From NCBI RefSeq assembly GCF_003602275.1, contig NZ_QZVT01000003.1, forward strand, positions 124,001-188,000: 64,000 bases of DNA, given 5' to 3'. The position numbers and the translations under genes were made by a program. Shown piece after piece: positions 42,817 through 64,000 of the stretch. Origin of the DNA: Arthrobacter cheniae. GTDB taxonomy: Bacteria; Actinomycetota; Actinomycetes; Actinomycetales; Micrococcaceae. The notes beneath the pieces are model-generated. The model was not told the DNA's origin. It saw only the letters and a program-made list of their open reading frames with translations, and searched no databases. Positions within the stretch are counted from its first letter, which is position 1; each line of letters opens with the position of its first letter.

Positions 42817-44331
42817 CTAGCCCTCGACGCCGAGGCGCTGCAGGATGAGTTCGCGCACGCGCCCGGCGTCGGCCTGGCCGCGGGTCGCCTTCATGACCCC
42901 GCCCACGATCGCGCCGACGGCCTGAACCTTGCCCCCGCGGATCTTCGCGGCGACATCCGGCTGGGCCGCGAGGGCGCCGTCGATCGCTTCGAGCAGCGGG
43001 CCGTCGTCGGACACCACCGCGAGGCCTCGCTTCTCCACGACCTCGGCAGGGGTGCCTTCACCGGCGAGGACGCCGTCGAGCACGTCGCGCGAGAGCTTGT
43101 CGTTGATCTTGCCACTCTCGATGAGCACGTTGAGCTCCACGATCAGTTCGGGTGTCACGCCCAGTTCGGCGGGCTCGAGGTCCGCGAGCTTGGCGCGGCG
43201 CGAGATCTCGCCCATCCACCATTTGCGGGCGACGGCGGCGCTGACGCCGGCAGCGATGGTGTCCTCGATCGAGGACATGACGCCGGCGTTGACGACGTCG
43301 CGGAACTCGGCGTCGGAGTAGCCCCAGTCAGCCTGCAGCCGCTTGCGCCGCTCGGCGGGCGGCTCGGGCAGTTCGGCACGCAGCTTCTCGATCCAGGCGT
43401 GGTTCGTCACGACGGGCACGAGGTCGGGCTCCGGGAAGTAGCGGTAGTCGTCGGCGTCGGACTTGGGGCGGCCCGACGTCGTCGACCGCGTGTCCTCGTG
43501 CCAGTGGCGCGTCTCCTGCTGGATGGGCGTGCCGGAATCGAGGACCGCCGCGTGGCGCTGGATCTCGTACCGGACAGCGTGCTCGACGGCGCGCAGCGAG
43601 TTGACGTTCTTCGTCTCTGTACGCGTGCCGAACTTCTCCTGCCCGTAGGGGCGCAGCGATACGTTGGCATCGCAGCGCACGTTGCCGCGTTCCATGCGCG
43701 CGTCGGACACGCCGAGGTTCTTGACGATCTCGCGGATGGCCGCGACATAGGCCTTGGCGAGCTCGGGGGCGCGGGAACCGACACCCTCGATGGGCTTCGT
43801 GACGATCTCGATGAGGGGAACGCCGGCACGGTTGTAGTCGACGAGGGAGAAATCGGCGCCCTGGATCCGGCCGGTCGCGCCGCCCATGTGCGTCAGTTTC
43901 CCGGCATCCTCCTCCATGTGCGCGCGCTCGATCTCGACCGTGAACACGGTGCCGTCCGCGAGTTCGATGTCGATGGACCCGTCATAGGCGATGGGGTCCT
44001 CGAACTGGGAGGTCTGGAAGTTCTTCGGGGTGTCCGGGTAGAAGTAGTTCTTCCGCGCGAAGTAGCACTTCTCGGCGATCTTGCAGTTCAGCGCGAGCCC
44101 GATCTTGATCGCCGACTCCACGGCCACGCCGTTGACGACGGGCAGGACGCCGGGCAGGCCGAGGTCCACGGGTGTCACATTGGTGTTCGGCACGTCCCCG
44201 AAGGCGTTCGGCGCGGACGAGAACATCTTGGTTCTCGTGTTGAGCTCCACGTGGACCTCGAAGCCGAGCACGGGATCGTACTTTTCCATCGCCTCTTCGA
44301 AGGACAGGATCTCGTCGGTTGCAGCAGTCAT
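42817..44331 (-). CDS. gatB: Asp-tRNA(Asn)/Glu-tRNA(Gln) amidotransferase subunit B
   Basis: A 504-residue GatB that phosphorylates the mischarged Glu or Asp on tRNA, using ammonia channelled from GatA. 'FEVHVELNTRTKMFS', 'VDYNRAGVPLIEIV', 'GNVRCDANVSLRP' and 'FPEPDLVPV' are conserved GatB blocks; the C-terminal YqeY-like tRNA-binding domain starts near residue 390. The start ATG 44331 shares a base with the gatA stop (TAATG) and has GGAGGAAG upstream. It ends the gatCAB operon. Confidence 0.97.
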   Translation of the reverse strand: MTAATDEILSFEEAMEKYDPVLGFEVHVELNTRTKMFSSAPNAFGDVPNTNVTPVDLGLPGVLPVVNGVAVESAIKIGLALNCKIAEKCYFARKNYFYPDTPKNFQTSQFEDPIAYDGSIDIELADGTVFTVEIERAHMEEDAGKLTHMGGATGRIQGADFSLVDYNRAGVPLIEIVTKPIEGVGSRAPELAKAYVAAIREIVKNLGVSDARMERGNVRCDANVSLRPYGQEKFGTRTETKNVNSLRAVEHAVRYEIQRHAAVLDSGTPIQQETRHWHEDTRSTTSGRPKSDADDYRYFPEPDLVPVVTNHAWIEKLRAELPEPPAERRKRLQADWGYSDAEFRDVVNAGVMSSIEDTIAAGVSAAVARKWWMGEISRRAKLADLEPAELGVTPELIVELNVLIESGKINDKLSRDVLDGVLAGEGTPAEVVEKRGLAVVSDDGPLLEAIDGALAAQPDVAAKIRGGKVQAVGAIVGGVMKATRGQADAGRVRELILQRLGVEG

Positions 44332-50677: not shown

Positions 50678-50983
50678 TCAGCCGATGTTCTGGACCGCTG
50701 AGCGGGCGCGCGATCCGGCGCCCGTCGCCGTCTGGTCGTTGAGTCCGAGGGTTTCCTTGACCAGCGAGATGATGTTGCGGGTCTCGTTGGCAGCGTTCTT
50801 GAAGCGCACCTCGACCGCCTGGTACTCCTCCGAGACGCCATCGGCCTGGAAGTCGGACATGGCCGTGCTGACAGCCTTCTCCCGCTCGCCGATCAGGGCC
50901 TCGAGGCGCCCGACGATCGACTGGATGTCCCCCTGCACGGCCGACGATGTATCGGTATCGAAGCTGACGCGATCCTGTGACAT
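50678..50983 (-). CDS. WXG100/ESAT-6-like protein (candidate T7SS substrate)
   Basis: A 101-residue all-helical protein of WXG100 size. Two helices (about residues 15-46 and 52-80) flank a turn 'FQADGVSEEYQ' (45-55), where the usual Trp-x-Gly is replaced by 'ADG' after a Phe. It resembles proteins called pore-forming ESAT-6 family. These form small helical hairpins, typically secreted through type VII systems. The flexible C-terminus has no clear YxxxD/E signal except 'EEYQAVE' in helix 2. It is co-directional with a second such gene and divergent from the T7SS operon. Confidence 0.7.
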   Translation of the reverse strand: MSQDRVSFDTDTSSAVQGDIQSIVGRLEALIGEREKAVSTAMSDFQADGVSEEYQAVEVRFKNAANETRNIISLVKETLGLNDQTATGAGSRARSAVQNIG

Positions 50984-51082
50984 GGTGTGTCCTTCCGCAC
51001 CGGCTGACCGGTGCCTTTCTCGAAGTGGTTGGGTCCCCTGCTCGGGGTGGAGCCGCTGGAAGCGGTTCGAGGAGGACGGTGC

Positions 51083-51415
51083 TCAGCGGCCGCCGAAGCG
51101 CGCGGCATCGAATGCTGCCGAACCCTGCTGCTGCGTGGCGTTGTCGGCTGATTCCTGGTCGCCCGTCTGGAAGGCGGTGTCCATCTCGGACTGCCCCTGC
51201 AGGATGATTCCCAGCGACGTGTTCAATTCGTTCGCGACGATATCGGTGCGCTGCTTGAATTCGTCGAAGCGAACCCGGCCCTGGCCGTTGAACTTCCCTT
51301 CGAGGGGAGCGACCGCATCCACGAGGCTGCGGACGAGCTGCCCGAGATCCTCGTTCGACGTACCGGTCTGCTGCGTCAGTGTGGACAGTGTCTGCGAACC
51401 CATGTCGAACTTCAC
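51083..51415 (-). CDS. Second WXG100-like protein with F-x-G turn (candidate T7SS substrate)
   Basis: A 110-residue helical protein. Helix 1 (about 20-40), then the turn 'KFNGQGRVRFDEF' (41-53), where Phe-Asn-Gly stands at the WXG position, then a long helix 2 to residue 80. The tail is Gln/Gly-rich with 'AFDAARFGG' at the end. Size, turn and paired arrangement with the 50678-50983 gene suggest a heterodimeric substrate pair for the adjacent EccC-EccD machinery. No classical Trp is present in the protein. Confidence 0.68.
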   Translation of the reverse strand: MKFDMGSQTLSTLTQQTGTSNEDLGQLVRSLVDAVAPLEGKFNGQGRVRFDEFKQRTDIVANELNTSLGIILQGQSEMDTAFQTGDQESADNATQQQGSAAFDAARFGGR

Positions 51416-51619
51416 GAATTACCCCCTCGACGCCTGATGGCGCCTCTTGATCCTTCTCGTCGAACCCTGGTCAGGGAAACACTGCCGGGCCGCATGCTCA
51501 GCGGAGGTGTTGTCACCCGCGAGCCCTGCAGTGTCCATCTCAGCTCCCCTCACGGCTCCGGTCAAGGACGGCTCATGGGTAGTTCTCCCCATACGGCCAT
51601 GGGAACGCGGGAAGGACCG

Positions 51620-51658
51620 GCAAAAGGTGCGAGTATATGAACGGTTTCAGGAACATTC
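51620..51658 (+). promoter_or_regulatory. Possible promoter of the T7SS operon
   Basis: In the 243-base divergent region between the second WXG100-like gene (minus) and the small membrane gene (plus), a TATATG at 51634-51639 could act as a -10 about 20 bases before the ATG at 51659, with AGGA as ribosome binding site. The matching -35 is weak. Elsewhere in the region I see no strong palindrome. Confidence 0.3.
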
Positions 51659-51991
51659 ATGGGGGGATCCTTGCCGAACGACTACGACAGCCAGCTCATC
51701 GAGTCCGTCACCGTCCGCAGGAACCGTCTCACGAACGCCCTCCTGTTCGGCGGCAATCCGCATCAGCGACGGTGGATGGATTCGGTCAAGCTGTTCCTCT
51801 TCAGCATCGCCCTCTCCGCCGTCGTCGCCGCCGTCTGCGTCGGGGTGTCCTTCGTGGGCAACCTCCTCCAGGAGCAGCGTGAACGCCAGGAGCAGCAGAA
51901 CACGGGTGCAGGCGCCGTCGTCCCTCATTCCGGCTGGAACCTCCACCTCCAGGCAGCGTCGCAGCCTGCCTACCTACCCGCAGGAGACTGA
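51659..51991 (+). CDS. Small single-TM protein at the head of the T7SS operon
   Basis: A 110-residue protein. A basic cytoplasmic N-terminus ('SVTVRRNRLTNALLFG', 'PHQRRWMDSVK') is followed by one TM (about residues 42-66) and a 40-residue outside part rich in Gln ('QEQRERQEQQN'). The layout of basic N-terminus plus single TM recalls the membrane end of EccB, but the large outer domain of EccB is absent, so I do not name it EccB. ATG at 51659 has AGGA six bases upstream; TTG at 51671 is an alternative. It precedes eccD by four bases. Confidence 0.7.
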   Translation: MGGSLPNDYDSQLIESVTVRRNRLTNALLFGGNPHQRRWMDSVKLFLFSIALSAVVAAVCVGVSFVGNLLQEQRERQEQQNTGAGAVVPHSGWNLHLQAASQPAYLPAGD

Positions 51992-51995
51992 CCGG

Positions 51996-53324
51996 ATGGC
52001 CCACGCCTTCACGCGGGTGACGCTCATCGGCACACGGCGTCACCTCGACCTCCTCCTGCCGTCCGACCGGCCGGTCGGCGCGCTGATGCCACAGGTCCTT
52101 GACCTGCTGCACGACGAGCCGAGCGACGACGTCGCCGCGAAGCTGCTCGTGACGCCGGACGGGATGCCGCTCAGTGCCGGACGTACCCTCGACGACGCCG
52201 GGATCGCCGACGGGTCCTCCCTCCTGCTGTGCAATGCGGCCGAGGCTCCACCGGCCGCCGTCGTCTATGACGTCACCGACCTCGTGGTCGACCGGACGGC
52301 GGACCTGCGGGGGCGCTGGACGACGACCTTCACGACGGCGACCGCGATCGTCCTCACTGCGCTCGGCCTGTGGGCGGGTGCCGAGCTCCTCCTTCGCGAG
52401 TACCTGCCCGGCAGCGCCTGGTGGATCCTGTGTTCCCTGGGCGGCATCCTCCTGGCCGGTGGAACCGTCGCCGGCGTCGTCGCCCGGTTCCGCGAGATGG
52501 GCATCGCATTACTCGTCGCCGGCTGGATCACCGCCTTCGCCGGCATCCTGCACCGGGGTGACAGCCTGCCGGTCGTCGCCCTCCTCACCTCCGCACTGAC
52601 GGTCGTCCTCCTCCTGGCCGTCGGGATCATCGCCGACCGGAGGAAGGCGATGGCGAGTGCGGCCCTGACCCTCGGCGCCCTCACCCTCGTGTGGGTCGCC
52701 GCGACCTTCATCGCACCCGACCCGCCGAAAGCGGCCGCCCTCGCCGCGCTCGCCGGCCTCCTCGTCCTCGGCCTGATGCCGAAGGTCGCGCTGTCGGCCT
52801 CCGGCCTGGCCACGCTCGACGACCAGCGCGCGAAGGGCGGGACGATCGCCCGGACCGATGCCCTCGATGCCGTCGCCGCAGCGCACGCGAGCCTCAGCTT
52901 CGGATCGGTCATCACGGCAGGCTCGATCGGAGCGGGCCTGTGGATCATCGGTACCGATACCGATACCCAGGAGTGGACGCTGCCGTTGCTGGCCGCGCTG
53001 ACCCTGGCCACGGCGCTGCGTGCCAGGGCATTCCCCCTCGCAGCAGAGCGGATCGCGCTCAATGCCGCCTCCGCCGTCGGGCTCACCGCCCTGGCTCTCG
53101 GAGCGCTCCGGTTCCTGCCCCAGCAGCCATGGCTGGTCGCCGTCGTCGTGCTCCTGATTGCGGTGGCGAGCGCACTCTCGCTGGCCGTCGAGCCGGCGGA
53201 CCATGTCGCCGCGCGGGGCCGCCAGCAGGCGAAACGCCTCGAGACGGTCGCCATCCTCGCGTCCATCCCCCTCACCGTCGGGATGTTCGGCATCTTCGTA
53301 CAACTCCTCGAAAGCTTCCGGTGA
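51996..53324 (+). CDS. eccD: Type VII secretion integral membrane protein EccD
   Basis: A 442-residue core T7SS membrane protein. The N-terminal ubiquitin-like (YukD) domain spans about residues 5-82 ('RVTLIGTRRHLDLLLPSDRP'). Eleven TM segments follow from about residue 110, the number known for EccD, which dimerises and lines the inner-membrane channel. The ATG at 51996 has GGAG upstream. Its stop overlaps the next gene's GTG by four bases (GTGA). The TM part diverges strongly in primary sequence, so identity rests on domain order, TM count and context. Confidence 0.88.
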   Translation: MAHAFTRVTLIGTRRHLDLLLPSDRPVGALMPQVLDLLHDEPSDDVAAKLLVTPDGMPLSAGRTLDDAGIADGSSLLLCNAAEAPPAAVVYDVTDLVVDRTADLRGRWTTTFTTATAIVLTALGLWAGAELLLREYLPGSAWWILCSLGGILLAGGTVAGVVARFREMGIALLVAGWITAFAGILHRGDSLPVVALLTSALTVVLLLAVGIIADRRKAMASAALTLGALTLVWVAATFIAPDPPKAAALAALAGLLVLGLMPKVALSASGLATLDDQRAKGGTIARTDALDAVAAAHASLSFGSVITAGSIGAGLWIIGTDTDTQEWTLPLLAALTLATALRARAFPLAAERIALNAASAVGLTALALGALRFLPQQPWLVAVVVLLIAVASALSLAVEPADHVAARGRQQAKRLETVAILASIPLTVGMFGIFVQLLESFR

Positions 53325-54286
53325 GCGCCATGACCACGTCGACCGAACGGCGGACCACCCGCACGGACCCCTTCGAGACCCCGGAGGAGCGGCTCCGCCG
53401 TGTCCTTCGGACCCGCCCGGCGGACGGGGCCCTGCGCACCCTGGCGCACAACGTCACCGATCTCTTCCGCAGTGACGCCTACGTCGAGGAACTGACCAGG
53501 GCTGCAGCCGGCACGCAGGTGCCGGTCACCACGGGCCGACGCATCGCGGTCGTCGGCTCCCGCGGTGGCGCCGGGAAGACGACGACGGCCGCACTGCTGG
53601 CCCGCGTGTTCGCCGCCCTGCGCTCCGACACCATCGCCGCCGTGGACGCCGGAACGGGTCTCGGCACACTGAGCCTCCGGCTGGGGCTCGATTCCGCCCC
53701 CACGGCCGCTGACCTCGCCGCCGCCGAACCAGCGACCACCGTGGAGGAACTCTCCCGCACCATGGGCAGGGCGCAGGAAAACCTCCTGATCGCGGGCAGC
53801 GGGGCGGGCCGCACCGCGGAACCACCCCTGACCGGGACCGACAACGAGCGTGCGAGCCGCCTGGCGCGCACCATATCCCGGTTCTGCCCCGTCACCGTCT
53901 ACGACTGCGGGACAGGAATGCACTTCGCTCCCGCCCTCTGGTCCCTGGACCAGGCGCATGCCGCGCTCTTCGTGACACCGGCGACGGTCGCGGGTGTCGA
54001 GGACGCCCTCGCGGTGGCATACCGCCGGCCCGAAGCAGGCGAACCCGGGCACGTGCCCATGCTCGTCGTCGTCGTGAGTGTCGATGACAACGCCGCCCTC
54101 GACGCCGGCCGCCAGGCGAAGCGGCTCAGCGACGCCGGCATCCCCGCGGTGCACATCGACTACGACCGGCACCTCGCCGCAGGGGTCGAACTCGACCTCG
54201 GTCTACTCGCCCGGAAGACCCGCCTCCAGGTCAGCGCACTCGCCTCCCGGGCCCTCGCGCTGGCGATCGACGGCCGCGCAGGATGA
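53321..54286 (+). CDS. MinD/ParA-like ATPase (EspI-like) in the T7SS operon
   Basis: A roughly 321-residue protein. A 70-residue N-terminal segment ('EERLRRVLRTRPADG', 'HNVTDLFRSDAYVEEL') precedes a deviant Walker A P-loop 'GSRGGAGKTTTAALLA' and a MinD-type fold: 'AAVDAGTGLGTLSLRLGL', 'TVYDCGTGM' and 'ALFVTPATVAGVEDAL'. In mycobacterial ESX-1, EspI is a related MinD-like ATPase that tunes secretion to energy state. It overlaps both neighbours (GTGA with eccD, ATGA with eccC), so it is made together with the core machine. ATG at 53330 is an alternative start. Confidence 0.85.
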   Translation: MSAMTTSTERRTTRTDPFETPEERLRRVLRTRPADGALRTLAHNVTDLFRSDAYVEELTRAAAGTQVPVTTGRRIAVVGSRGGAGKTTTAALLARVFAALRSDTIAAVDAGTGLGTLSLRLGLDSAPTAADLAAAEPATTVEELSRTMGRAQENLLIAGSGAGRTAEPPLTGTDNERASRLARTISRFCPVTVYDCGTGMHFAPALWSLDQAHAALFVTPATVAGVEDALAVAYRRPEAGEPGHVPMLVVVVSVDDNAALDAGRQAKRLSDAGIPAVHIDYDRHLAAGVELDLGLLARKTRLQVSALASRALALAIDGRAG

Positions 54287-57200
54287 GCGTTCGGATCGTG
54301 CACCGGCCCGCACGGACCACGGCCCCCGCTCGGGACCTGCCGCCCTTCAGCCTCGACGCGCCTCCTGCAGTGGAGTCCGGAGGCGGCGGGATGAACATGA
54401 TGTCCCTCGTGCCGCTCCTGGGGGCCGGACTCTCGATGACCATCATGATGCTGTTCCGCGGATCCTCCCTGGCCGCCGTCGGAGCCCTCATGATGATCGT
54501 GACCGTCCTCGCGTCGGTGGTCATGATGGTCAGCCAGCGGGGCAAGCAGGGCAGGCAGCGCCGTGAGCTGCGCGAGAACTACCTCGAATACCTGGAACGC
54601 GCCAGGACGCAGCTGCGGTCGGAGGAGCAGGTCGCCGAACGCGTGGCCCGGGTGAGCAGCCCTCCCCCCGATGCCCTTTTCGACATCATCCGGAACCCAC
54701 AGCGACTGTGGGAACGACGACGCTCCAACGAGGACTTCCTGCGCGTCCGCCTCGGGACGGGCCCCCGTCGCAACCGCGATATCCTCGTCGCACACTCGGG
54801 ATCGGCCCTGCAGCAGACCGACACCTTCATGACGACGGAGCTCGAGCTGCTCAAGCAGCGCTACGAGTCCAGTCCGGACCTGCCGATCACCCTTCCCTTG
54901 GATTGCGCCGGCAACGTGAGCGTGATCGGCTCGCGCGACTTCGTGCTCCACGTCAGCAGGCTGCTGATCGCCGAGGCCGCGTCCTTCCACTCCCCCGAGG
55001 ACCTCCTCCTCGCGATCGCCTGCGACGAATCCGCCCGGACCGACTGGGAGTGGGCGACGTGGCTCCCGCACCTCGCCGACCAGCACACGACGCACCGCAC
55101 CGGCCCCGTCCGACGGCTCGCGCCGTCGATGGACCTGTTGTCCGACCTGCTGCGCGGAGACCTCCTCGAGCGCTCGAGCCTCGCCGCCGAGTCCCGCAAG
55201 AACTTCCTCCGCGGGGGAGTCGGTGTCGCCCTGCCACGCCTTCTCGTGATCGCCGACGCCTACGGGCATCTGCCGGTGGAGCTCCACATCCCGGATACCC
55301 ACGCCGCCCCCGGCCAGCTCGGCGTCACCACGATCCACCTGGTGTCCGACCGCCTGCAGGAGCCCGGAGAAGTGGCACTGCGCATCAGCGAGACGGCGAC
55401 CGGATTCACGGTGGAGAACTACCGCGTGGACGGCGTCGACCCGCTCATCGACCACGGCACCCTCGACGAGCTGCCCCTACCCACCGCCGAAGCCGTGGCG
55501 CGCGACCTCGCCCCGCTCCGCCTCTCACCGGACTCGCTGGAGCACGACTCCACGGAGAGCTCGGTCGGCTTCCTCGAGATGCTCGGCCTCACCCCTGAAC
55601 TCAGTACGGCCGACATCCGCCGGCTGTGGCAGCCCCGCAGCGACGTCGATTTCCTCCGCATACCCCTCGGCGCCGATGAGCGCGGCCGCCCCACCCTCCT
55701 GGACCTGAAGGAAGCGGCCCAGTTCGGCCAGGGCCCCCACGGACTCTGCATCGGCGCCACGGGTTCGGGCAAGAGCGAGATGCTCAGGAGCCTCGTCGTC
55801 GGGCTGCTCGCCACCCACCCGCCCGAGACACTCGCGATGGTGCTCGTCGACTACAAGGGCGGCGCCACCTTCGCCCCCTTCGAACGTGCACCCCAGGTCA
55901 CCGGTGTCATCACGAACCTGTCGGACGACCTCAGCCTGATCGAGCGGGTCTACGCCAGCCTCTCCGGGGAGATCCAGCGGCGCCAGGAAGTGCTGAAATC
56001 CGCCGGGAACCTGGCGAACATCACGGACTACCAGCTCCATCGGCAGGAGCGGAAGGCGCACGGCGAGGAGCTGGCCCCACTGCCGCACCTGGTCGTGATC
56101 ATCGACGAGTTCGGCGAACTGCTGACGGCCCGCCCCGACTTCATCGACCTGTTCCTGTCCATCGGGCGTATCGGCCGGTCCATCGGTGTCCACCTCCTGC
56201 TCTCCAGCCAGCGCATCGAGGCCGGGAAGCTGAGGGGACTGGACACCTACCTCTCCTACCGGATCGGGCTCCGCACGCTCTCCGAAGCCGAGAGCAGGAC
56301 CGTCCTGGAGACACCTGACGCCTTCCACCTGCCACCCGTCCCCGGCTTCGGCTACCTCAAGGTGGACACCACCACCTACACGAGGTTCAAGGCGGGCTAC
56401 GTCTCCGGGCCACTCGAGGCCCTGCTCGAGGAGCAGGAGCAGGACGACGACGGAGGCGAACAGGACGAGGTGCTCGAGGTCCCGAAGTACGCGGCGTCCC
56501 TGCTGTCCGGCACTCCGGCCGGCAGGGACGATCCCGCACCCCAGGCGACGACGGGGTCCAGGCGTACCACCGGCCCCACCGTCCTCTCCACCCTGATGGA
56601 CACCCTGTCCACCTTCCCGCGGGCGGTCGACCCCATCTGGCTGCCGCCCCTGCCGGGCGGCATCTCCCTCGACGCGGCAGCGGGAGGCATCCAGACCACG
56701 AGCCAGGGGCTGCGCCTCGGGCACGCCATGGCGCAGGCCGCTCCCCTACGCATCGGGGTAGGCCTCCTCGACGACCCCGCCCGGCAATGGCAGGGCGTCT
56801 GGGAGCTCGACCTCGCAGCCAACGGCGGCAACCTCGCCATCATCGGCGGTCCCCAGACCGGCAAGAGCACGGCGCTCCGGACGATCGTCGCGAGCCTCGC
56901 GCTCACCCACAGTCCCGCCGAGGTGGGCATCTACGGGATCGATCTGCTGGGCAGTGGGCTCATGGCACTCGAGGGCCTACCGCACGTGGGAGGTATAGCC
57001 GTGCGCAGCAATCGCGAGGTCATCCGCCGCACGATGGACGAGCTGCTGACCATGCTCGGCGAACGGGAGCGCCTCTTCGAGCGCTATCGGATCGACTCCC
57101 TTCCGACGCTTCGACGCATGTGCGCCCAGGGCCGCGTCCCCGAACTCACGAGCGCGGACATCGTGCTGGTCCTCGACGGCTACGGCCAGCTCAACGACGA

Positions 57201-58308
57201 GTTCGAGGACGTGGAGAAGCAGGTGCACTCGCTCATCGCCCGTGGTGGCGGCTACGGGCTGCACGTCGTCACGACGTCGTCACGCATGAACGAGATCCGC
57301 ATCTCCCAGCAGAGCTTCTTCGGCAACCGGATAGAACTGCGCCTCGCTGATCCCGGTGAATCCGCCCACGGACGAAAGGTCGGCGAGGCGGTCAGCCTCG
57401 GACGGCCAGGGCGGGGACTAGCGGCGAACAAGCTGCAGGGACACTTCGCCCTCCCCCGGATCGACGGCGTCTCCGACGAGGACACTGCGGTCCAGGGCAC
57501 GCGCGAGCTCGTTGCAGCCGTCGCGTCCTCCACCGACCAGCGGGCCATGCGCGTGCGCGTGCTGCCCGAGACGGTGCCCGCGTCGACGGTGCCGGTGCCG
57601 GAACGGCAGGCCCTGGTTCCGCTGGGCCTTCGGGAGGCGGACCTCGGGGTCGAGTACCTCGACCTGGAGCTGCGCGAGCGGCACCTCATGGTGCTCGGTG
57701 ACGAGGGCTCGGGCAAGACGAACGTCCTTCGGACCATCATCCGCAGCATGGTCGCCCAGCACACTCCCGACGACGTCGTCCTGGCCGTCTTCGATCCACG
57801 GCGCACCCTCAGCGAACAGGTGCCCGACTCCTACCTCGGTGGCTATGCGACCAGCGCGGCCCTGGCCGAGCAGCTGGCCGCCGCCGTCGCCACCGAACTG
57901 GACAAGCGCACCGGAGCCACACGGGCCGAGGTGTCCCTGATGCCCCGCGTCGTGCTCGTGATCGACGACTACGACATCCTGACCGCGGGCGGGTCGGCTC
58001 CCCTCGCACGGCTGGCGCCCTACCTGCCGCTCGCGAACGAGATCGGCCTGCATGCCGTGCTGACCAGGCGGGTCCGGGGATCGTCGAGGGGGCTGTACGA
58101 ATCCTTCTCGAGCTCCCTCCGTGACTCGGGCACTGCTGCCCTCGTCCTGTCCGGTGACCGCGCCGAGGGTCCGCTGGTCAGCGGCGTCCGCGCCCGCGCC
58201 CTGCCGCCCGGCCGCGGCCAGCTCGTGCAGGCCGGACAACCGGTGCAGACCGTGCAGCTGCTGTGGAACGAGCCGGCGTCCGTATCGGTATCGGCGGCCG
58301 GGAAGTAG
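54283..58308 (+). CDS. eccC: Type VII secretion ATPase EccC (fused EccCa-EccCb)
   Basis: A 1341-residue motor. Two N-terminal TMs (about 38-58 and 61-84) lead to a linker domain and three FtsK/SpoIIIE ATPase domains. Walker A1 'GATGSGKSE' is near 491 with Walker B1 'IDEFGE' near 607; Walker A2 'GGPQTGKST' is near 855 with B2 'LDGYG' near 965; Walker A3 'GDEGSGKT' is near 1139 with B3 'IDDYD' near 1228. Only the first Walker B has the catalytic Glu, as expected in EccC, where D2 and D3 mainly bind substrate. It powers export of WXG100-type proteins. An acidic linker (EQEQDDDGGEQDE) joins D1 and D2. Confidence 0.96.
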   Translation: MSVRIVHRPARTTAPARDLPPFSLDAPPAVESGGGGMNMMSLVPLLGAGLSMTIMMLFRGSSLAAVGALMMIVTVLASVVMMVSQRGKQGRQRRELRENYLEYLERARTQLRSEEQVAERVARVSSPPPDALFDIIRNPQRLWERRRSNEDFLRVRLGTGPRRNRDILVAHSGSALQQTDTFMTTELELLKQRYESSPDLPITLPLDCAGNVSVIGSRDFVLHVSRLLIAEAASFHSPEDLLLAIACDESARTDWEWATWLPHLADQHTTHRTGPVRRLAPSMDLLSDLLRGDLLERSSLAAESRKNFLRGGVGVALPRLLVIADAYGHLPVELHIPDTHAAPGQLGVTTIHLVSDRLQEPGEVALRISETATGFTVENYRVDGVDPLIDHGTLDELPLPTAEAVARDLAPLRLSPDSLEHDSTESSVGFLEMLGLTPELSTADIRRLWQPRSDVDFLRIPLGADERGRPTLLDLKEAAQFGQGPHGLCIGATGSGKSEMLRSLVVGLLATHPPETLAMVLVDYKGGATFAPFERAPQVTGVITNLSDDLSLIERVYASLSGEIQRRQEVLKSAGNLANITDYQLHRQERKAHGEELAPLPHLVVIIDEFGELLTARPDFIDLFLSIGRIGRSIGVHLLLSSQRIEAGKLRGLDTYLSYRIGLRTLSEAESRTVLETPDAFHLPPVPGFGYLKVDTTTYTRFKAGYVSGPLEALLEEQEQDDDGGEQDEVLEVPKYAASLLSGTPAGRDDPAPQATTGSRRTTGPTVLSTLMDTLSTFPRAVDPIWLPPLPGGISLDAAAGGIQTTSQGLRLGHAMAQAAPLRIGVGLLDDPARQWQGVWELDLAANGGNLAIIGGPQTGKSTALRTIVASLALTHSPAEVGIYGIDLLGSGLMALEGLPHVGGIAVRSNREVIRRTMDELLTMLGERERLFERYRIDSLPTLRRMCAQGRVPELTSADIVLVLDGYGQLNDEFEDVEKQVHSLIARGGGYGLHVVTTSSRMNEIRISQQSFFGNRIELRLADPGESAHGRKVGEAVSLGRPGRGLAANKLQGHFALPRIDGVSDEDTAVQGTRELVAAVASSTDQRAMRVRVLPETVPASTVPVPERQALVPLGLREADLGVEYLDLELRERHLMVLGDEGSGKTNVLRTIIRSMVAQHTPDDVVLAVFDPRRTLSEQVPDSYLGGYATSAALAEQLAAAVATELDKRTGATRAEVSLMPRVVLVIDDYDILTAGGSAPLARLAPYLPLANEIGLHAVLTRRVRGSSRGLYESFSSSLRDSGTAALVLSGDRAEGPLVSGVRARALPPGRGQLVQAGQPVQTVQLLWNEPASVSVSAAGK

Positions 58309-58338
58309 GTCTGCAGCAATGTCGTCGTGCTGCTTGTC

Positions 58339-58398
58339 GTCGCGGTAGTCCGCTTAAGGTCGCGGTGGTTCGCTGAGCGTCGCTGTGGTTCGTGCCCC
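58339..58398. repeat. Three 20-bp tandem repeats between convergent operons
   Basis: Units at 58339-58358, 58359-58378 and 58379-58398 share GTCGCGGT-GGTTCGC with decreasing match. They fill part of the 183-base gap between eccC (+) and the RDD-FHA gene (-). They may be a slippage repeat or a poor terminator; no hairpin with T-run is seen here. Confidence 0.65.
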
Positions 58399-58491
58399 GC
58401 CCGGCTCAGCGGATGTCGGTACAGCCGGGGCGGCTTTGGCCGGTTGGCGCAGCGGCGGCTGCCCTCGTCGGCCTATGAAGCGGTGGCGGCC

Positions 58492-59547
58492 CTAGCGAAT
58501 GGTGAAGCGGCGGTCCCCGAAGCGGACGCTGGAGCCTCCGGGCAGCAACATCGCGACCTCCGGGTGCAGGGGCTGCTCCGAGCCGGTCTGATCGATGAGA
58601 AAGCTGCCATTCGTGGAGCCGCGGTCGGTGACCCACACCGCGCCCTGATCGAAGCCCAGATGGACGTGCGTCTTGGAGACCGAGCGATTGAGGTCGGCGA
58701 AGTTGATGAGGTAGTTGACGGCCTCGTTCGGTCGGGGCTCGGGATTGCGGCCGATGAGGGCCTGCCCGGCAATCTCCACCTCCGTGCCGTCGTCGAATAC
58801 CAGCACCCACTGACCGTCGACAGCTGCCCCCGAGCCGGACCCGGATGAAGACGCGGCCGATGCCTCCGCGGGTACCGGGGAAAGCTCCACATCCATGCCG
58901 GGCGTGCTCGGAGCCCAGCCGCTCGAAGGAGCAATCGGAGCAAATGGAGCAGGCGGGCCCGGCGCCGTGGACCCCGAAAGGGCGGGAACTTCCGTTCGCG
59001 GAGGAGTGCCGGCTGCCGCGAACGCGTGGTCCTGCCGGCTGCCAGAAGCGACAGCGGCCCCTGTCGCTTCGTTCTCCGGATTCGACGGAACCGTTTCGCC
59101 TGCGAGTCCGCCGGTGCGCAGCGGATCGCGGCCGGCACGGACGTCGAGGACATACGTACCCACGAGCTTGTCGTGCCAGCCCCGGCGCTGTCCGTCCCGG
59201 TCCCACGTGTTGGAGATGAGCAGCGCGAGCGGCCCGATGACGGGAACGATCGAGGATACGCCGAGCGCCAGCGCCCTCACGAGTGCAGCCACGAATCCGG
59301 GCGGAGTGCCTGCTGCGCTGACCGTCACGAGACCGAGGGCGAGGTTGCCCGGCGTCCGTCCCGTGGTCGATTCCCAGGCCAGGACGGCAATCCAGTACAG
59401 GAGCACGACGACCCCTGCCGACAGCAGGGCCGCCGTACCACCGTCGAGCAGGTAGGCGACGAGGACCGCGAGGGCGGGCACCAGGGTGTCGACCACCTTG
59501 GCCAGCACCCGCTGGCGGGCCAGGGCGTTGACGAGCTTTGTTGCCAT
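58492..59547 (-). CDS. RDD-family membrane protein with C-terminal FHA domain
   Basis: About 351 residues. The N-terminal RDD part has three TM segments ('VDTLVPALAVLVAYLL', 'ALLSAGVVVLLYWIAVLAW', 'SIVPVIGPLALLIS') with 'TTGRTPGNLALGL' and 'RRGWHDKLVGTYV'. A Pro/Ala/Ser linker runs to about residue 250. The FHA domain follows: 'ALIGRNPEPRPNE', 'SVSKTHVHLGF' and 'VTDRGSTNGSFL', all key phosphothreonine-binding residues intact. It likely docks phosphorylated partners at the membrane. Starts at 59589 or 59598 are alternatives to 59547. It closes the kinase-FHA operon. Confidence 0.9.
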   Translation of the reverse strand: MATKLVNALARQRVLAKVVDTLVPALAVLVAYLLDGGTAALLSAGVVVLLYWIAVLAWESTTGRTPGNLALGLVTVSAAGTPPGFVAALVRALALGVSSIVPVIGPLALLISNTWDRDGQRRGWHDKLVGTYVLDVRAGRDPLRTGGLAGETVPSNPENEATGAAVASGSRQDHAFAAAGTPPRTEVPALSGSTAPGPPAPFAPIAPSSGWAPSTPGMDVELSPVPAEASAASSSGSGSGAAVDGQWVLVFDDGTEVEIAGQALIGRNPEPRPNEAVNYLINFADLNRSVSKTHVHLGFDQGAVWVTDRGSTNGSFLIDQTGSEQPLHPEVAMLLPGGSSVRFGDRRFTIR

Positions 59548-59669
59548 GCGGCGGGTCCTGTCTTCCTGTCCGATGCCGTGCAGGGCCATCCCCTTCACCG
59601 TGCGGCACCGATCGTTCTGATTCTAGGGCGCCTGCGGCACCCTTCCTGTTCCGGCTCGGGCTCCGGGCG

Positions 59670-60377
59670 TCAGTCCTCCTCGCTACGACCCTTCATCGTC
59701 TCGAGCAGCCCGAGATCGTCCTGTGTGACCAGGTGCGAGGTGATGGCGTGTTCCACGAGGCGGGCCCGACGATTGGTCGCCACCTTGCCCCCGCCCCCAC
59801 GGAGCCCCACCACTCCGACCCGATCGAGCTTGTCGCACACGTTGTCCAACTTGCGGTTGAACCGGGTTAGCGCCCAGCCGAGCCGCTCGGCTGCCTGGGC
59901 GGAGGACGGAATGGCACTGAAACCGGTACCCTCGCGCCGCAGCATGGGCTCGGCGAGCGCGACGATGATCGCCTTCTGCGCGTCGGTGAAATGCACAGGA
60001 CCGATTGTGGAATCACCCGCACTGTCCTCCGCCCTGGCCTGCTGCCGGAACGCGGGCGTCTGGAGGTGGATGTCGAATTCGTAGGTCGTCGGCCCTGCTG
60101 TGAAGACCACCCGGGTCTGGCCGAAGACGATGGGGATGCGCGCACCCGGAGACACCCACGCCTGCATCCCGCCGGTGGTGTCCGCTACGGTGGCCGAGAT
60201 CATGCTGCCGACGTTCGACAGCCACCACATGCCGTTCTGGCGCGCCAGCTCGAGGAACTGTCGGTGCAGGTACGGATTGTCGTCGACCTCGAGGTCACCT
60301 TCGCGGCCGATGCTGAACACGGCGTCATCCGCAGGCTCATGCCACTCACCGCAGAAATCCAGCGCGAGCTCCCCCAT
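59670..60377 (-). CDS. FHA-like protein with a putative winged-helix C-terminus
   Basis: A 235-residue protein. Residues about 15-110 form an FHA-like fold ('FSIGREGDLEVDDNPYLHRQFLEL', 'WWLSNVGS'); the Gly-Arg and His are kept, but the canonical Ser-x-x-His is degenerate. The C-terminal half ('FTDAQKAIIVALAEPMLR', 'SAQAAERLGWALTRFNRKLDNVCDKL', 'NRRARLVEHAI') looks like a winged helix or similar DNA- or protein-binding domain. ATG at 60377 has AGG at good spacing. It lies 16 bases after the kinase gene's stop in the same operon. Its role is unknown; a phospho-responsive regulator is one idea. Confidence 0.75.
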   Translation of the reverse strand: MGELALDFCGEWHEPADDAVFSIGREGDLEVDDNPYLHRQFLELARQNGMWWLSNVGSMISATVADTTGGMQAWVSPGARIPIVFGQTRVVFTAGPTTYEFDIHLQTPAFRQQARAEDSAGDSTIGPVHFTDAQKAIIVALAEPMLRREGTGFSAIPSSAQAAERLGWALTRFNRKLDNVCDKLDRVGVVGLRGGGGKVATNRRARLVEHAITSHLVTQDDLGLLETMKGRSEED

Positions 60378-60393
60378 CGTGATCCTTTCTGTA

Positions 60394-62046
60394 CTACTCG
60401 GGCCAGCAGGCGGCGGTGGGTTCCGAACCCTGGCCGTTGCTGCGGGCTGTCTGGACTTCGATGCACGTGGTGCCGGACGCATCCGCCGGAACGGACGCCG
60501 TCAGCTGCAGCGTCCGGGTCCAATCCGACGTCTCACGGACGGTGACCGTCCGGAAGCGGTACACATCGCCGTCCTGCGGGTCCGGGTTGGTCCAGCTGAA
60601 GCTGACAGCAGCTCCTGCCGCACTCCCGGCCAAAGCCTCCGGAGGGGGAACGTTGCCCTCCACGCCCGCCAGCGGATCGGCAGGCGGCTGCGTGAATCCC
60701 GGCGGCGGAGCGGCGTCCTCCTGCGAGCCGCCGAGGGCTACTGCGGCAAGAGCGACGCCGGCCACCAGGACGGCGCCCGCGACGGCCAACAGGGCCGGCA
60801 CGCGCCTGGACCTACGGGCCTGATGGTTCCCGGTCCGGTCCGACGTCGCGCCTGCCTGGTCGGGGCGGAGTGTCGACGAGGTGGTCCGGCCCGTCGTGCT
60901 GCCCGACGTCATCGCTGCCGCCGCGTCCGCCGTCGTCGGGTCGAGGGCTGGGGCACCATCGCTCCCCCGCAGGACGGTGCGTCCTGCCTCCGTGACGTCG
61001 AAGGAGGGATCCTGGTGTGCACCGGGCGCCGCGAACCGCGGCACCTCGGTCCGGGTGGTCGGTGAATCGGGGAAGGTCGGCGAGGACGTGTTCGCATCGG
61101 GGTCGATCGACACGACCCGCCGGACGCGCGTTGCATCTTCGTCGGCGTCGACCTCCACGGTGTACCGGGCATCGTCGAGGACCTCGAAACCCGTGACCGA
61201 GTAACCCAGCTCCGTCTGGATCCGCTGCAGGGTGAGGCCGAAGGAGTAGGCGGATGCAAAGCGCGAGGACGGCTGCTTGGACATCGCTGTGGCGAGTGCG
61301 AGCTCGAGGGACGCAGGAACGTCCTCCCGGTGCGTGCGCTTCAGCGGCACGGAGCTGATGCGGTCCATCAGGGCGAGCTGCGAGTTGTCCATCCCCGGCT
61401 GCACGAACGGCGAGTGACCGGCAAGGAGCGTGTACACGGTGGCTCCCAATGACCACACGTCGGCGAGGACGCCATCCACCGCTTCGTCCCCGAAGGCCTC
61501 CGGCGGGGACCACGGGACGGACATGCCCTGGTCCTGGGCGGACCCGTCGGCGTCCGTGGTGCCGGAGATGCCGAAGTCCGTCAGCGCCGGTCGGTTGTAG
61601 TCCGTGACGAGGATGTTCGCCGGCTTGATGTCGCGATGAACGATGCCGGCACGGTGTGCGGACTCCACCGCGGATGCGACCTGGATGCCGATGGTCAGCG
61701 CCTCCGCGACGGACAGCCGCCCGCTGCGGTAGCGCACGTCGAGGCTCGGGCGGGAGCAGTACTCCATGGCGAGATAGGAGTGGCCATCCGCCGTCGTATT
61801 CGCCTCGAAGATGTTCACGATGTACGGGTGTGATGACAGCTGGGCCATCAGGTTCGCCTCCGCCTCGAACGCGCGGCGCGCCCCCTCCGTCCTCAGGTCC
61901 GAGATCAGGACCTTGACGGCTACCCGGCGGCGCGGACGGTCCTGCTCGTACAGGTAGACATCGGCGAAGCCACCGGAACCGAGCAGGCTCACGTACCGGT
62001 AGCCGGGCAGCGAGGGAGGCGGGGCAGGGAGGCGCTTCGGGCTCAC
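60394..62046 (-). CDS. Transmembrane Ser/Thr protein kinase with extracellular domain
   Basis: A 550-residue kinase. The cytoplasmic domain (about 15-275) has the G-loop 'LGSGGFADVYLYE', ATP-Lys in 'VAVKVL', 'VHRDIKPANILV', 'TDFGIS' and 'SPPEAFG', so it should be active. A Thr/Ser/Pro-rich juxtamembrane region and one TM (about 420-447) follow. A roughly 90-residue outer domain resembles a fibronectin-III/Ig-type beta fold with a Cys pair (TTCIEV, AACWPE); no PASTA repeats. The GTG start overlaps the upstream FHA gene's stop (GTGA). It probably phosphorylates the FHA partners and perhaps T7SS parts. Confidence 0.94.
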   Translation of the reverse strand: MSPKRLPAPPPSLPGYRYVSLLGSGGFADVYLYEQDRPRRRVAVKVLISDLRTEGARRAFEAEANLMAQLSSHPYIVNIFEANTTADGHSYLAMEYCSRPSLDVRYRSGRLSVAEALTIGIQVASAVESAHRAGIVHRDIKPANILVTDYNRPALTDFGISGTTDADGSAQDQGMSVPWSPPEAFGDEAVDGVLADVWSLGATVYTLLAGHSPFVQPGMDNSQLALMDRISSVPLKRTHREDVPASLELALATAMSKQPSSRFASAYSFGLTLQRIQTELGYSVTGFEVLDDARYTVEVDADEDATRVRRVVSIDPDANTSSPTFPDSPTTRTEVPRFAAPGAHQDPSFDVTEAGRTVLRGSDGAPALDPTTADAAAAMTSGSTTGRTTSSTLRPDQAGATSDRTGNHQARRSRRVPALLAVAGAVLVAGVALAAVALGGSQEDAAPPPGFTQPPADPLAGVEGNVPPPEALAGSAAGAAVSFSWTNPDPQDGDVYRFRTVTVRETSDWTRTLQLTASVPADASGTTCIEVQTARSNGQGSEPTAACWPE

Positions 62047-64000
62047 GGGAGGCCTTCGAACTGCAGCGAGACGTCCTCGCCCAGCTGTGCGATGTCGCCG
62101 TCGAGCAGGAAGGCACGCTCGCCCTCACCGAGGCGGCGCTGCGGTTGCCCGGCGCGGATCAGCACGGTGCCGTTGGTCGCGCGGAGATCGCACAGCAACA
62201 CGTGCCAGCCGTCGAGTCGGACCTCCACATGGGAACGCGAGATGTCCCCGGCGTTGCTGCGCACCTGCACGAGCCGGGGCATCTCCCTGCCTGCGACCCG
62301 GGAGACGGAGGGCTGACGGCCGAAGATCAGCGAGCGATCCAACGTGATCACCTCACCCGAGCTCACCCGCACCTGCCCCAGACTCGGACGCCTGACCTGT
62401 TCCGTGTCCTCCTTGAGCGCAGCGGAGCATTCGGCGCACTCGCTTCGCGTGGGTGCATTCGCGTGGCCCTGCAGGCACAGGCGTGCAACGATCATCGGAC
62501 CGGTGGCGGGTCCCGACGGCGGTCGTGGCGCTCTCGGCGCCGAGCCGGCCTCGCCTCCGGGGGGACGGACCACGGTATCGGCGGCATCGGCGTCCGAGCT
62601 GTTGACGGCGGTGGGCAGGGTCGACGGCCCCGCCGGGTCCTTCGGCAGGCCCAGGGCGGCCGGAGCGGCCGGTGCACCTTCGGTGACAGGTGCGGCCGGT
62701 GCGCCTTCCGTGACCGGAGTGGCGGGTGCGCCTTCGGTGACCGGCGCGGCTGGTGCACCTTCGGTGACCGGCTGGGTCGGTTCGGTCGCGGTGACCGGCC
62801 GGGCCGACTCACTCCCGAGCAGCGCACCCATGTCCGCGGGCGGGTTCCGGGTGGGTGTCGGCTTCATGATGGTGTCGCCGTCGTGATCGGAGGGGACGCC
62901 TGCTGGTGAGGCGTCAGTCGTGCTCGTTGGCGTGACCGTAATAACGACTGAGGCTGCGGTCGACGTCGGGGTCGGGGTGGGTGTCGCACCTGCGGCTTGG
63001 GCTCCGGCAGTGGGTGCGACGCCGCCGCCGTGTGTTCCTGACACGCCGGCTTCGTCACGCTGCCACGTGTCGGAGGAGGGAAACCGCCGCTGGATGGTCT
63101 GTTCGGCGTCGCCGGACACCATCTGGGGGGCGTTCACCAGGGAGGACATCGAGGGGAGTTCCAGCTCCTCCGCCGGCTCGGATGCTGTCGCGGTTGTCCT
63201 GGGCAAGAGCCAGGGGATGGAGTCGATGAGCTCCCTCGCAGCCGGTGCGGTGCGCTGCCCGGGAGCCGAGGTCGCCACCGGCGCGGCGGTGATGGTGACG
63301 CGTGTCGGTACCTGCAGGTCGGTGTCCGTGTCCGTGTCGGTGTCAGTACCCGTGTCCGGGCGGGCCGCGGCAGCATCGCCTTGGGGATGGGCAGCATCAT
63401 CTCGGCTGTGCGAAGCGTCATCGGGCGCGTAGAGCAACGGGTTGATGGTTGCGGAGTCGTCCCCGGCATGGACCGGCCTCCCGCCGATCGGGACGCCGGT
63501 CGAGCGACTTCCCGTCACGGAACCGTCGGAGGGTGACGTCGACGCAGGGGTGTGGCCGTCCTTCTCTGCGAAGGTCGCCGCTTGAGCGACGGCAGGCGGA
63601 ACCGCAGCTGCACGTACCGGAACCGGCACCGCGGCGCGCACGGTTGCTCGCCGGATGATCGCGGACGCGAGCACCATGCCGGCCTCCAGCGGGTACGGCC
63701 CGCCTGAGAAGGGAACACCAACGCGGGACACACCAGCGGCGGGAACACCGACGTCGGGAGCATCAGCGTCGGGAACACCATCCAGACCGAGGTGGAAGTC
63801 CTCGCCATCGCCGCCCTCGATGACCCGCTCGGTCCACGTGGTGATGCGTCCGCCCCCGATCACCTGCTCGCCCCCGGTTCCCACCGACAGGAGGAACGGC
63901 CCGCGGAGCATGACATGGAGATCCTCGTTGCACGAGAGGAGCGCGAAGGGTGGCACGGCGCTCACGTCCGAGCCGAAGCCTCGGGCCGCAATCGGCAGCA
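62043..64000 (-). CDS. Zinc-ribbon/FHA domain protein, 5' end outside window
   Basis: At least 652 residues; the frame stays open to the window edge and the N-terminal part seen ('FALLSCNEDLHVMLRGPF') reads like the second half of the N-terminal domain of such T7SS-linked FHA proteins. I therefore mark it partial. Then comes a long disordered Pro/Ala/Thr region with three sets of short repeats, a zinc ribbon 'LCLQGHANAPTRSECAECSAAL', and an FHA domain: 'IFGRQPSV', 'ISRSHVEVRLDG', 'DLRATNGTVLI'. It leads the kinase-FHA operon. It probably binds phosphothreonine on the kinase or on secretion parts. Confidence 0.88.
   Translation of the reverse strand, partial: LPIAARGFGSDVSAVPPFALLSCNEDLHVMLRGPFLLSVGTGGEQVIGGGRITTWTERVIEGGDGEDFHLGLDGVPDADAPDVGVPAAGVSRVGVPFSGGPYPLEAGMVLASAIIRRATVRAAVPVPVRAAAVPPAVAQAATFAEKDGHTPASTSPSDGSVTGSRSTGVPIGGRPVHAGDDSATINPLLYAPDDASHSRDDAAHPQGDAAAARPDTGTDTDTDTDTDLQVPTRVTITAAPVATSAPGQRTAPAARELIDSIPWLLPRTTATASEPAEELELPSMSSLVNAPQMVSGDAEQTIQRRFPSSDTWQRDEAGVSGTHGGGVAPTAGAQAAGATPTPTPTSTAASVVITVTPTSTTDASPAGVPSDHDGDTIMKPTPTRNPPADMGALLGSESARPVTATEPTQPVTEGAPAAPVTEGAPATPVTEGAPAAPVTEGAPAAPAALGLPKDPAGPSTLPTAVNSSDADAADTVVRPPGGEAGSAPRAPRPPSGPATGPMIVARLCLQGHANAPTRSECAECSAALKEDTEQVRRPSLGQVRVSSGEVITLDRSLIFGRQPSVSRVAGREMPRLVQVRSNAGDISRSHVEVRLDGWHVLLCDLRATNGTVLIRAGQPQRRLGEGERAFLLDGDIAQLGEDVSLQFEGLP
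62671..62778. repeat. Four 27-bp tandem repeats in the FHA gene
   Basis: Four 27-bp units (62671-62697, 62698-62724, 62725-62751, 62752-62778) encode a nine-residue repeat of the form P-V-T-E-G-A-P-A-A/T in the disordered region. High identity at the DNA level suggests recent expansion. Confidence 0.88.
63325..63360. repeat. Six-base tandem repeat encoding Thr-Asp dipeptides
   Basis: A GTGTCC/GTGTCG unit repeated about five times encodes alternating Asp-Thr residues in the disordered region of the FHA protein. This kind of short in-frame repeat is prone to length change. Confidence 0.75.
63711..63785. repeat. Five 15-bp tandem repeats in the FHA gene
   Basis: Five 15-bp units at 63711-63785, built on GGGAACACC, encode a five-residue repeat of type Val-Pro/Ser-Ala/Asp with Val/Ala-rich spacing, just after the N-terminal domain. 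Later units are diverged. Confidence 0.75.

Follow-up and report, generated by a model that had tools for sequence, protein, structure and literature searches.

The closest described relatives of the system considered here are the ESX systems, which form the T7SSa class of type VII secretion systems (T7SS). In the ESX-5 structure, the N-terminal loop and helix of EccB5 couple neighbouring EccD5 barrels, EccC5 is surrounded by a basket of EccB5 membrane helices, and a chamber is formed by MycP5 and the periplasmic part of EccB5 (PMC8131196). In ESX-3, the N-terminal tail of EccB makes cross-protomer contacts, and the periplasmic domain is held essential for oligomerisation (PMC6986878). A second class, found in Actinomycetota, is T7SSd. 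It combines a WXG100 protein with an ATPase that carries FHA, a kinase, a protein with a single helix and a giant protein of Ig type, and lacks a ubiquitin-like protein; according to the same report, some ESX-4 variants have no EccE (Garrett et al. 2024, PMC11217815). Here we describe a locus of the soil bacterium Arthrobacter cheniae found in a stretch of 64,000 nucleotides (the window; bases 124001-188000 of contig C37 in a 4.02-Mb genome that is 99.1% complete, denoted G000 in the comparisons). It likely encodes a T7SS of the ESX lineage in which only the N-terminal segment and the membrane helix of EccB remain (hereafter mini-EccB), with no EccE and no linked mycosin. This assignment is made because the small protein shows homology to EccB, the EccC proteins of such loci form one clade, and mini-EccB, EccD, a MinD-like protein and EccC recur as a cassette with a WXG-type pair nearby.

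The original prediction, made from the window alone, listed an operon of a small transmembrane protein, EccD, a MinD-like ATPase and a three-ATPase EccC, divergent from two WXG100-like genes. All of these genes are present as open reading frames (ORFs) at the place that it gave. The mini-EccB gene (51659..51991, forward strand) encodes 110 amino acids (aa) with an N-terminal segment and one membrane helix (residues 45-63), and lacks a periplasmic domain. It is followed on the same strand by EccD (51996..53324, 442 aa), which has an N-terminal ubiquitin-like (YukD) domain and a polytopic membrane domain (Pfam EccD, E=1.7e-15; YukD, 7e-14; NCBIfam TIGR03920, 116 bits, cut-off 95). The next gene encodes a MinD/ParA-like protein (53330..54286, forward strand, 318 aa; Pfam CbiA, 27.2 bits, cut-off 25.4) with the P-loop lysine present. 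EccC (54283..58308, forward strand, 1341 aa) has two membrane helices and three FtsK/SpoIIIE stretches with Walker A and B motifs; the Walker A motifs are at residues 491, 855 and 1139, and all three Walker A/B pairs are intact. It scores 737 bits with TIGR03924 (cut-off 509) and 627 bits with TIGR03925 (cut-off 347).

The divergent pair is also present, one member below the WXG100 cut-offs and the other in a different family. WXG_A (51083..51415, reverse strand, 110 aa) is WXG100-like and reaches 21.5 of the 27.3 bits set by Pfam and 24 of the 44.85 bits set by NCBIfam. FNG replaces WxG in this protein and in all 15 aligned WXG_A rows; most full-length rows have a C-terminal F-D/E-A-like stretch followed by R-F. 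WXG_B (50678..50983, reverse strand, 101 aa) is a small helical-hairpin partner without WxG that belongs to NCBIfam NF035935, the 'pore-forming ESAT-6 family' (153 bits, cut-off 100). Far from the locus, at C34:37588-37839, lies a gene for a canonical WXG100 protein (61 bits) that contains WTG as well as a YADAE stretch. The locus shares with the T7SSa/ESX systems (ESX-5, ESX-3, ESX-4) EccC and EccD over the NCBIfam cut-offs, a WXG100-like pair and the N-terminal part of EccB. It differs from them in that no EccB periplasmic domain, EccE or linked MycP was found, in FNG instead of WxG, and in the MinD-like gene between EccD and EccC.

Sequence comparison indicates that the 110-aa one-helix protein is most likely a truncated EccB. 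It keeps the EccB N-terminal segment and membrane helix, and its alignment to EccB covers the segment before the helix as well as the helix. A hidden Markov model (HMM) built from 24 non-redundant EccB N-termini, with the small proteins excluded, was run on 9137 open frames of the loci compared, that of A. cheniae included. With default filters at E<=1 it produced 22 matches: three EccB proteins, all of which belong to the training set of the model, two short EccB proteins (in G103 and G159) and 17 small-protein frames. Because four loci were represented twice, the latter amount to 13 of the 17 distinct copies, the copies from A. cheniae and loci L060, L062 and L070 being missed. With the filters off, all 17 copies were found at E<=0.31, the best other frame having E=2.7; the A. 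cheniae protein has E=0.049 and 13.0 bits. The same model matches all seven copies from an actinobacterial family with genomes of 6-10 Mb (f20), with E between 1.2e-6 and 4.6e-5, and matches nothing else at E<=0.1. In the reverse direction, an HMM of the small proteins matches five small proteins and 16 EccB frames, and nothing else among 3160 frames. Profile-profile comparison of EccB with the small protein gives a probability of 93.8 and a score of 41.9, compared to a best score of 26.0 in 120 column shuffles, 80 of which were confined to blocks of 5 or 8 columns, and 19.8 when the alignment was reversed. Finally, when Pfam was applied to eight short proteins, two copies from family f14 reached the EccB cut-off, and the sole match of the copy from G133 (L057) was to EccB residues 16-69 (E=0.063).

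The two f14 genomes contain a second kind of short EccB, directly after EccD (G103, C9:229297-229500; G159, C14:51184-51378; loci L065 and L066). Like mini-EccB these are short frames (122 and 145 aa). They match Pfam EccB at residues 4-71 only, and they occur in genomes that encode a full EccB elsewhere. This looks like a separate truncation.

The original prediction had noted that EccB, EccE and MycP were not seen and had suggested that they might lie beyond position 64000, the alternative being a reduced or variant system. The first suggestion was rejected, as reading on gave other genes, namely PP2C, transglutaminase, DUF58, MoxR and two genes of giant surface-type proteins. The second one stands: no EccB, EccE or mycosin was found past 64000, and searches of the genome found neither EccB nor EccE. 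There are no EccB profile matches genome-wide. This negative is meaningful, since the same search finds EccB over the cut-off in 31 of 198 genomes of the order; it is silent in 14 control genomes. The observation that EccB is missing therefore holds for the full protein, whereas the likely remnant, the small transmembrane protein itself, had been overlooked. EccE has no matches in the genome either. The same model yields near full-length matches in two of 23 genomes and partial matches in two more, and this negative is weaker because the model is also silent in several EccB-bearing genomes. Nor was a full standard ESX locus found elsewhere, as profile searches find one YukD domain and one EccD in the genome.

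No mycosin was found at the locus. The best candidate is an S8 protease of 492 aa at C37:374.6-376.1 kb, 192 kb away and under the curated cut-off, with two partial matches in a single frame (194 and 56 bits). It has a signal peptide and a C-terminal helix by eye and no linked T7SS gene; its neighbours appear by eye to be exopolyphosphatase-like and NADH dehydrogenase-like genes. Of 23 genomes, 22 have subtilases that the mycosin model matches, but only one passes the curated cut-off. Unlinked matches above 200 bits were seen in three of the 13 other EccB-less genomes described below (G095, G121 and G180), and G042 lacks any match to the model. We conclude that the locus does not include a mycosin and that a helper elsewhere in the genome is possible.

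The cassette is a widespread lineage and not a one-off. EccD is found over the cut-off in 44 of the 198 genomes of the order, 30 with EccB and 14 without. The latter belong to eight families (G000, that is A. cheniae, G095, G042, G047, G084, G087, G121, G133, G140, G157, G169, G170, G180 and G190). In G073, EccB is encoded elsewhere on the chromosome and one EccD has no EccB beside it. The loci examined were those of the other 13 EccB-less genomes and that of G073 (14 relatives, 15 loci with A. cheniae). The small protein, EccD and EccC occur in all of them, in a recurrent gene order. A gene-sized open frame is situated between EccD and EccC in all 14 relatives; it matches the A. cheniae MinD-like protein at E<0.001 in five, and the other nine are MinD/ParA-like by eye. 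The P-loop lysine that is present in A. cheniae is seen by eye in none of the 14 (G095 has GRS). The WXG pair is present in 13 of the 15 loci (in G190, on a second stretch), and both exceptions, G140 with WXG_A only and G170, stop at a contig edge. Its position varies, the pair being located after EccC in G133. Several genomes contain two EccD genes, on one contig in G016, G104, G146, G182, G059, G063 and G161, where they are about 4-8 kb apart on one strand, and on different contigs in G118 and G012. The arrangement in the first seven suggests an ESX type with two different EccDs.

Matches of the A. cheniae EccC form three layers. The EccB-less group has 926-2950 bits and 43-100% identity. 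ESX-type proteins have at most 820 bits and 35-41% identity where nearly full-length. A widespread third class, with frames of about 1300-2000 aa, has identity near 30%. In a tree of 39 rows, the EccB-less proteins form one group (17 rows, SH-aLRT support 99) and seven third-class ATPases form another (100), and the support of the EccB-bearing group is only 65. In a second tree, with the third class and the long row from G167 left out and six f20 rows added, the EccB-less (23 rows) and EccB-bearing (14 rows) proteins separate at 100/100. The EccB-less clade of 23 rows thus covers nine families and is sister to the EccCs of ESX systems. The best EccC segment is 91% identical to those of Arthrobacter bussei KR32 and Arthrobacter sp. 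Leaf234, the only two close relatives found in a scan of genome contigs.

When the small-protein alignment was compared with 396 genomes of the phylum, 13 matched: three of the order, seven of family f20 and three weak ones (below 25 bits). In f20 the small protein adjoins EccD in all seven loci, EccC and the MinD-like protein follow in six of the seven, and the WXG pair is present in four of the seven. Pfam analysis of the neighbours in two of these loci found an Imm49 immunity protein directly before mini-EccB in one (L144:5100-9654), and a frame ending in an ADP-ribosyltransferase domain together with DUF6508 frames in the other (L145:18-5571). These neighbours hint at an antibacterial cargo of EccB-reduced systems. 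Another recurrent neighbour is a gene with DUF6177 (PF19674), which adjoins EccC or mini-EccB in several relatives, with six frames confirmed (next to EccC, for instance, at L009:14033-15504, L010:14035-14936 and L051:8558-10011). In A. bussei and G095 it forms two adjacent frames after EccC, and in Leaf234 it is in pieces. In the window there are 184 bases between EccC and the next gene, with no room there for a DUF6177 gene. This association ties a family of unknown function to the EccB-reduced type of secretion.

Convergent with the cassette, all on the reverse strand, are the genes described in the original prediction as a kinase and three FHA-bearing proteins. The kinase was confirmed (60394..62046, 550 aa, E=2.4e-42): it has the catalytic motifs HRDIKPANI and DFG, one membrane helix (418-436) and an outer tail. 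FHA domains were called by Pfam in two proteins, an RDD-FHA protein with an RDD membrane domain (58492..59598, 368 aa) and a protein of 701 aa that crosses the window edge at 64000 (62043..64148). The third (59670..60377, about 235 aa) is FHA-like only by eye and has no Pfam match; its homologues occur in the PFNA-like module of relatives. These genes are one end of a longer set running past 64000. In window coordinates extended beyond the edge, where the frame starts are uncertain, it contains PP2C (64145-65071), TgpA transglutaminase (65275-67821), DUF58 (67713-69299), MoxR (69116-70336) and two giants. The first giant (70174-76296, 2040 aa) is rich in Ig/cadherin/Fn3 domains, has a hydrophobic stretch at 14-32 and, by hydropathy, has no C-terminal membrane helix. 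The second (76411-82611, about 2000 aa) is its homologue, with 50% identity in the N-terminal part. Base composition shows no sign of foreign DNA (GC content 0.693 in both the cassette and the PFNA part and 0.702 on the ligA side), and identity to plasmid records is 38.4% at most among the best 25 of 419 matches.

The longer set resembles the PFNA cluster of bifidobacteria, which consists of pkb2, fn3, aaa-atp, duf58, tgm, prpC and fha (PMC8430577), and whose kinase phosphorylates the MoxR ATPase (PMC8430577, PMC6803598). The kinds of genes are the same, as is the order fn3, MoxR, DUF58, transglutaminase, PP2C, FHA. However, in the window the kinase is at the other end and a secretion motor adjoins the set, which is not mentioned for PFNA in the available text of that report. 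Indeed, no mention of type VII secretion was found in the accessible parts of the PFNA literature (including PMC8430577, PMC6803598 and PMC10688814).

A different motor is situated at the same locus in G038, which belongs to the same genus and has no EccD match. The gene order there is giant, giant, MoxR, DUF58, TgpA, RDD-FHA, PP2C, FHA, kinase, FHA-like. It continues with an FtsK/SpoIIIE ATPase of 1478 aa that has an FHA domain at its N-terminus, followed by three genes named by eye, for a WXG100-type protein (with WEG), a P-loop ATPase reading as AAA+ with TPR and a repeat/membrane protein. On the far side are ligA, IMPase and a homologue of the ORF at 44319. These outer genes are also present in the window and in G095, but there they flank the EccC-MinD-EccD-miniEccB-WXG cassette (one giant is seen in G095). 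Judged by its genes, the G038-type locus closely fits T7SSd as outlined in the available text of PMC11217815. With T7SSd the window locus shares its occurrence in Actinomycetota, a kinase, a small one-helix protein, a giant Ig-domain protein and the T7SSd-type block at this very locus in G038. It fails this assignment on the ATPase and the ubiquitin-like domain: the window ATPase is of the EccC type with no FHA domain among the 25 Pfam families listed, and the window has an EccD with a ubiquitin-like domain whereas T7SSd has no ubiquitin-like protein. Further, it has two WXG-like proteins instead of one, and by hydropathy its first giant shows no C-terminal membrane helix, which the T7SSd giant has together with a signal peptide. 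In the available text of PMC11217815, EccD is reported for none of the subtypes c-j, and the word Arthrobacter does not appear.

The G038 ATPase was searched for in 30 genomes, 15 of them from the family. Orthologues above 2100 bits occur in seven family genomes (G038, G165, G005, G023, G081, G151, G177), and in neither of the two family genomes with the cassette, nor in A. bussei or Leaf234. Matches to the giant occur in exactly nine of the 15 family genomes, those with one or the other motor, and in none of the six without a motor, the match in G023 covering only 32 residues at a contig edge. Such co-occurrence would have a chance of 1 in 5005 if the genomes were independent, but they are related. 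Across the order, the giant is found in 97 of 198 genomes, and among the matches listed at least 27 of these encode a third-class ATPase no more than 30 kb away from it. In G133 both systems are present at separate places, the PFNA set there consisting of kinase, FHA-like protein, giant, MoxR, DUF58, TgpA and ATPase. The description of the kinase/FHA operon as built into the secretion locus is thus true of the window and not of the cassette, because the module stands beside a T7SSd-type ATPase in G038 and the giant is present in 97 of 198 genomes.

The RDD-FHA gene seems to have moved: it is situated between TgpA and PP2C in G038 (L106:1604-3892) and G165 (L107), and beside EccC in the window. 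The A. cheniae protein is closer to the PFNA copy of G038 (183 bits) than to cassette-side copies in other families (at most 83 bits), and therefore is probably a native PFNA copy rather than a passenger of the cassette.

A ubiquitin-like domain fused to the start of the G038 ATPase, suspected by eye in the first 95 residues (L106:9263-9562), was considered and is not supported. The profile comparison gave a probability of 8.3 and a score of 20.6, the best of 40 shuffles being 17.2, and Pfam analysis of three pieces of this region found no ubiquitin-like domain.

Several explanations other than an ESX system with a reduced EccB have to be weighed. The small protein could be unrelated to EccB and serve in assembly as a one-helix protein, a role that TsdH may have in T7SSd; the system would then simply have no EccB. 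A single helix with short tails is a simple shape, and among the eight short proteins analysed with Pfam the A. cheniae copy and four others have no EccB match. However, all 17 distinct copies and the seven from f20 outrank every other frame in the EccB search, the reverse search is equally selective, the shuffled controls stay well below, the protein keeps the same place beside EccD and the pre-helix segment aligns too, so that this explanation seems unlikely. Alternatively, EccB, EccE and MycP could have been lost by degeneration, leaving a non-functional remnant of an ESX locus. The core genes are indeed missing, and the gene pair after EccC in A. bussei and G095, one member of which has DUF6177, is fragmented in Leaf234, and the window leaves no space for it. 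Decay would be patchy, though, while the reduced form is one clade with a recurrent gene order, and the Walker motifs of EccC are intact; we consider decay improbable. Some features still speak against an ESX system with a reduced EccB. Only about 65 residues of EccB are retained. Taken singly, the Arthrobacter copies have low scores (13.6 bits for L009 and 14.7 bits for L010, in addition to the A. cheniae copy, which also lacks a Pfam match) and are linked to EccB through aligned orthologues with 30-84% identity. The EccB set came from a search that also drew in five small proteins, later removed, and its choice may lean towards them. The loss of the periplasmic domain should hurt assembly, because the ESX studies credit this domain with oligomerisation (PMC8131196, PMC6986878). 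The mycosin-like S8 protease 192 kb away could take part in the system. Finally, the cassettes read in other families have no PFNA genes beside them, and PFNA also occurs without the cassette.

The last point means that the cassette genes are tied to one another more strongly than to the kinase set; the PFNA link is one of gene neighbourhood in one family. Possibly the cassette and the kinase/FHA/giant set are neighbours by chance, the cassette working alone and the phospho genes doing something else. The occurrence of the giant in many genomes without the cassette agrees with this; its restriction to family genomes with a type VII ATPase, albeit related ones, does not, and on balance we find chance proximity less likely than not. 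The kinase, the giant Ig-type protein and the locus shared with a T7SSd-type relative would also be expected if this were a T7SSd system whose ATPase only resembles EccC. This is very improbable, given EccC and EccD over the curated ESX cut-offs, no FHA domain on the ATPase among the families listed, and an EccC tree that places the window ATPase with the ESX EccCs and apart from the seven third-class ATPases.

The likely reading of the locus as an ESX system with a reduced EccB includes a candidate mechanism. By analogy with ESX-5, mini-EccB would tie neighbouring EccD barrels and form a helix basket around the membrane bundles of EccC. The part of EccB that is kept would then match the EccD-coupling and EccC-basket jobs, and the lost part the periplasmic ones, MycP being gone too. 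EccC would recognise the WXG_A/WXG_B pair. YxxxD/E is a known export motif of T7SS substrates, and the F-D/E-A-like stretch at the C-terminus of WXG_A may be a comparable export signal. The pair and any co-substrates would cross the cytoplasmic membrane via a ring of EccC, EccD and mini-EccB, without the periplasmic EccB/MycP chamber. Less surely, in Micrococcaceae the EccB-reduced motor may have taken over from a T7SSd motor at the kinase/PP2C/FHA/MoxR/DUF58/transglutaminase/giant locus, and the kinase/phosphatase/FHA set might gate the assembly or activity of the new motor. Reversible phosphorylation of ring parts on threonine is possible, because the locus encodes PP2C, two proteins with called FHA domains and a kinase that has its catalytic motifs, one membrane helix and an outer tail; the phospho-control of secretion suggested in the original prediction is plausible.

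More tentatively, the EccB-reduced T7SS might be a separate widespread subtype, defined by mini-EccB, EccD, the MinD-like protein, EccC and the FNG/NF035935-type pair, with DUF6177 and RDD-FHA in several loci. It would secrete without the EccB/MycP chamber, and its motor and the T7SSd motor would be able to replace each other at a phospho-regulated module for surface proteins that both share. If the motors are interchangeable, the bifidobacterial PFNA operon would be part of a type VII secretion apparatus. The exchange of motors at one locus suggests that the kinase, FHA proteins and giant surface proteins are an accessory unit able to serve two motors, and it provides a testable link between the PFNA operon and secretion. 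In the ESX structures, EccB is both a staple of the membrane complex and, together with MycP, the periplasmic chamber. A lineage keeping only the staple would separate these two roles and offer a smaller, non-pathogen model for the minimal requirements of a type VII motor. A literature search on missing or truncated EccB, with subscription journals mostly outside its coverage, produced only a paper on eccB5 cloning and no description of an EccB-reduced form among the top matches.

The best other match of the G038 ATPase in A. cheniae is at C30 (191 bits). A second FHA-bearing FtsK/SpoIIIE ATPase, of 1396 aa, is encoded at C30:17.4-21.6 kb (L125:9372-13562), near WhiB and galactofuran genes and with no link to EccD. 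Other genomes of the family contain more ATPases whose frames are near 1400 aa.

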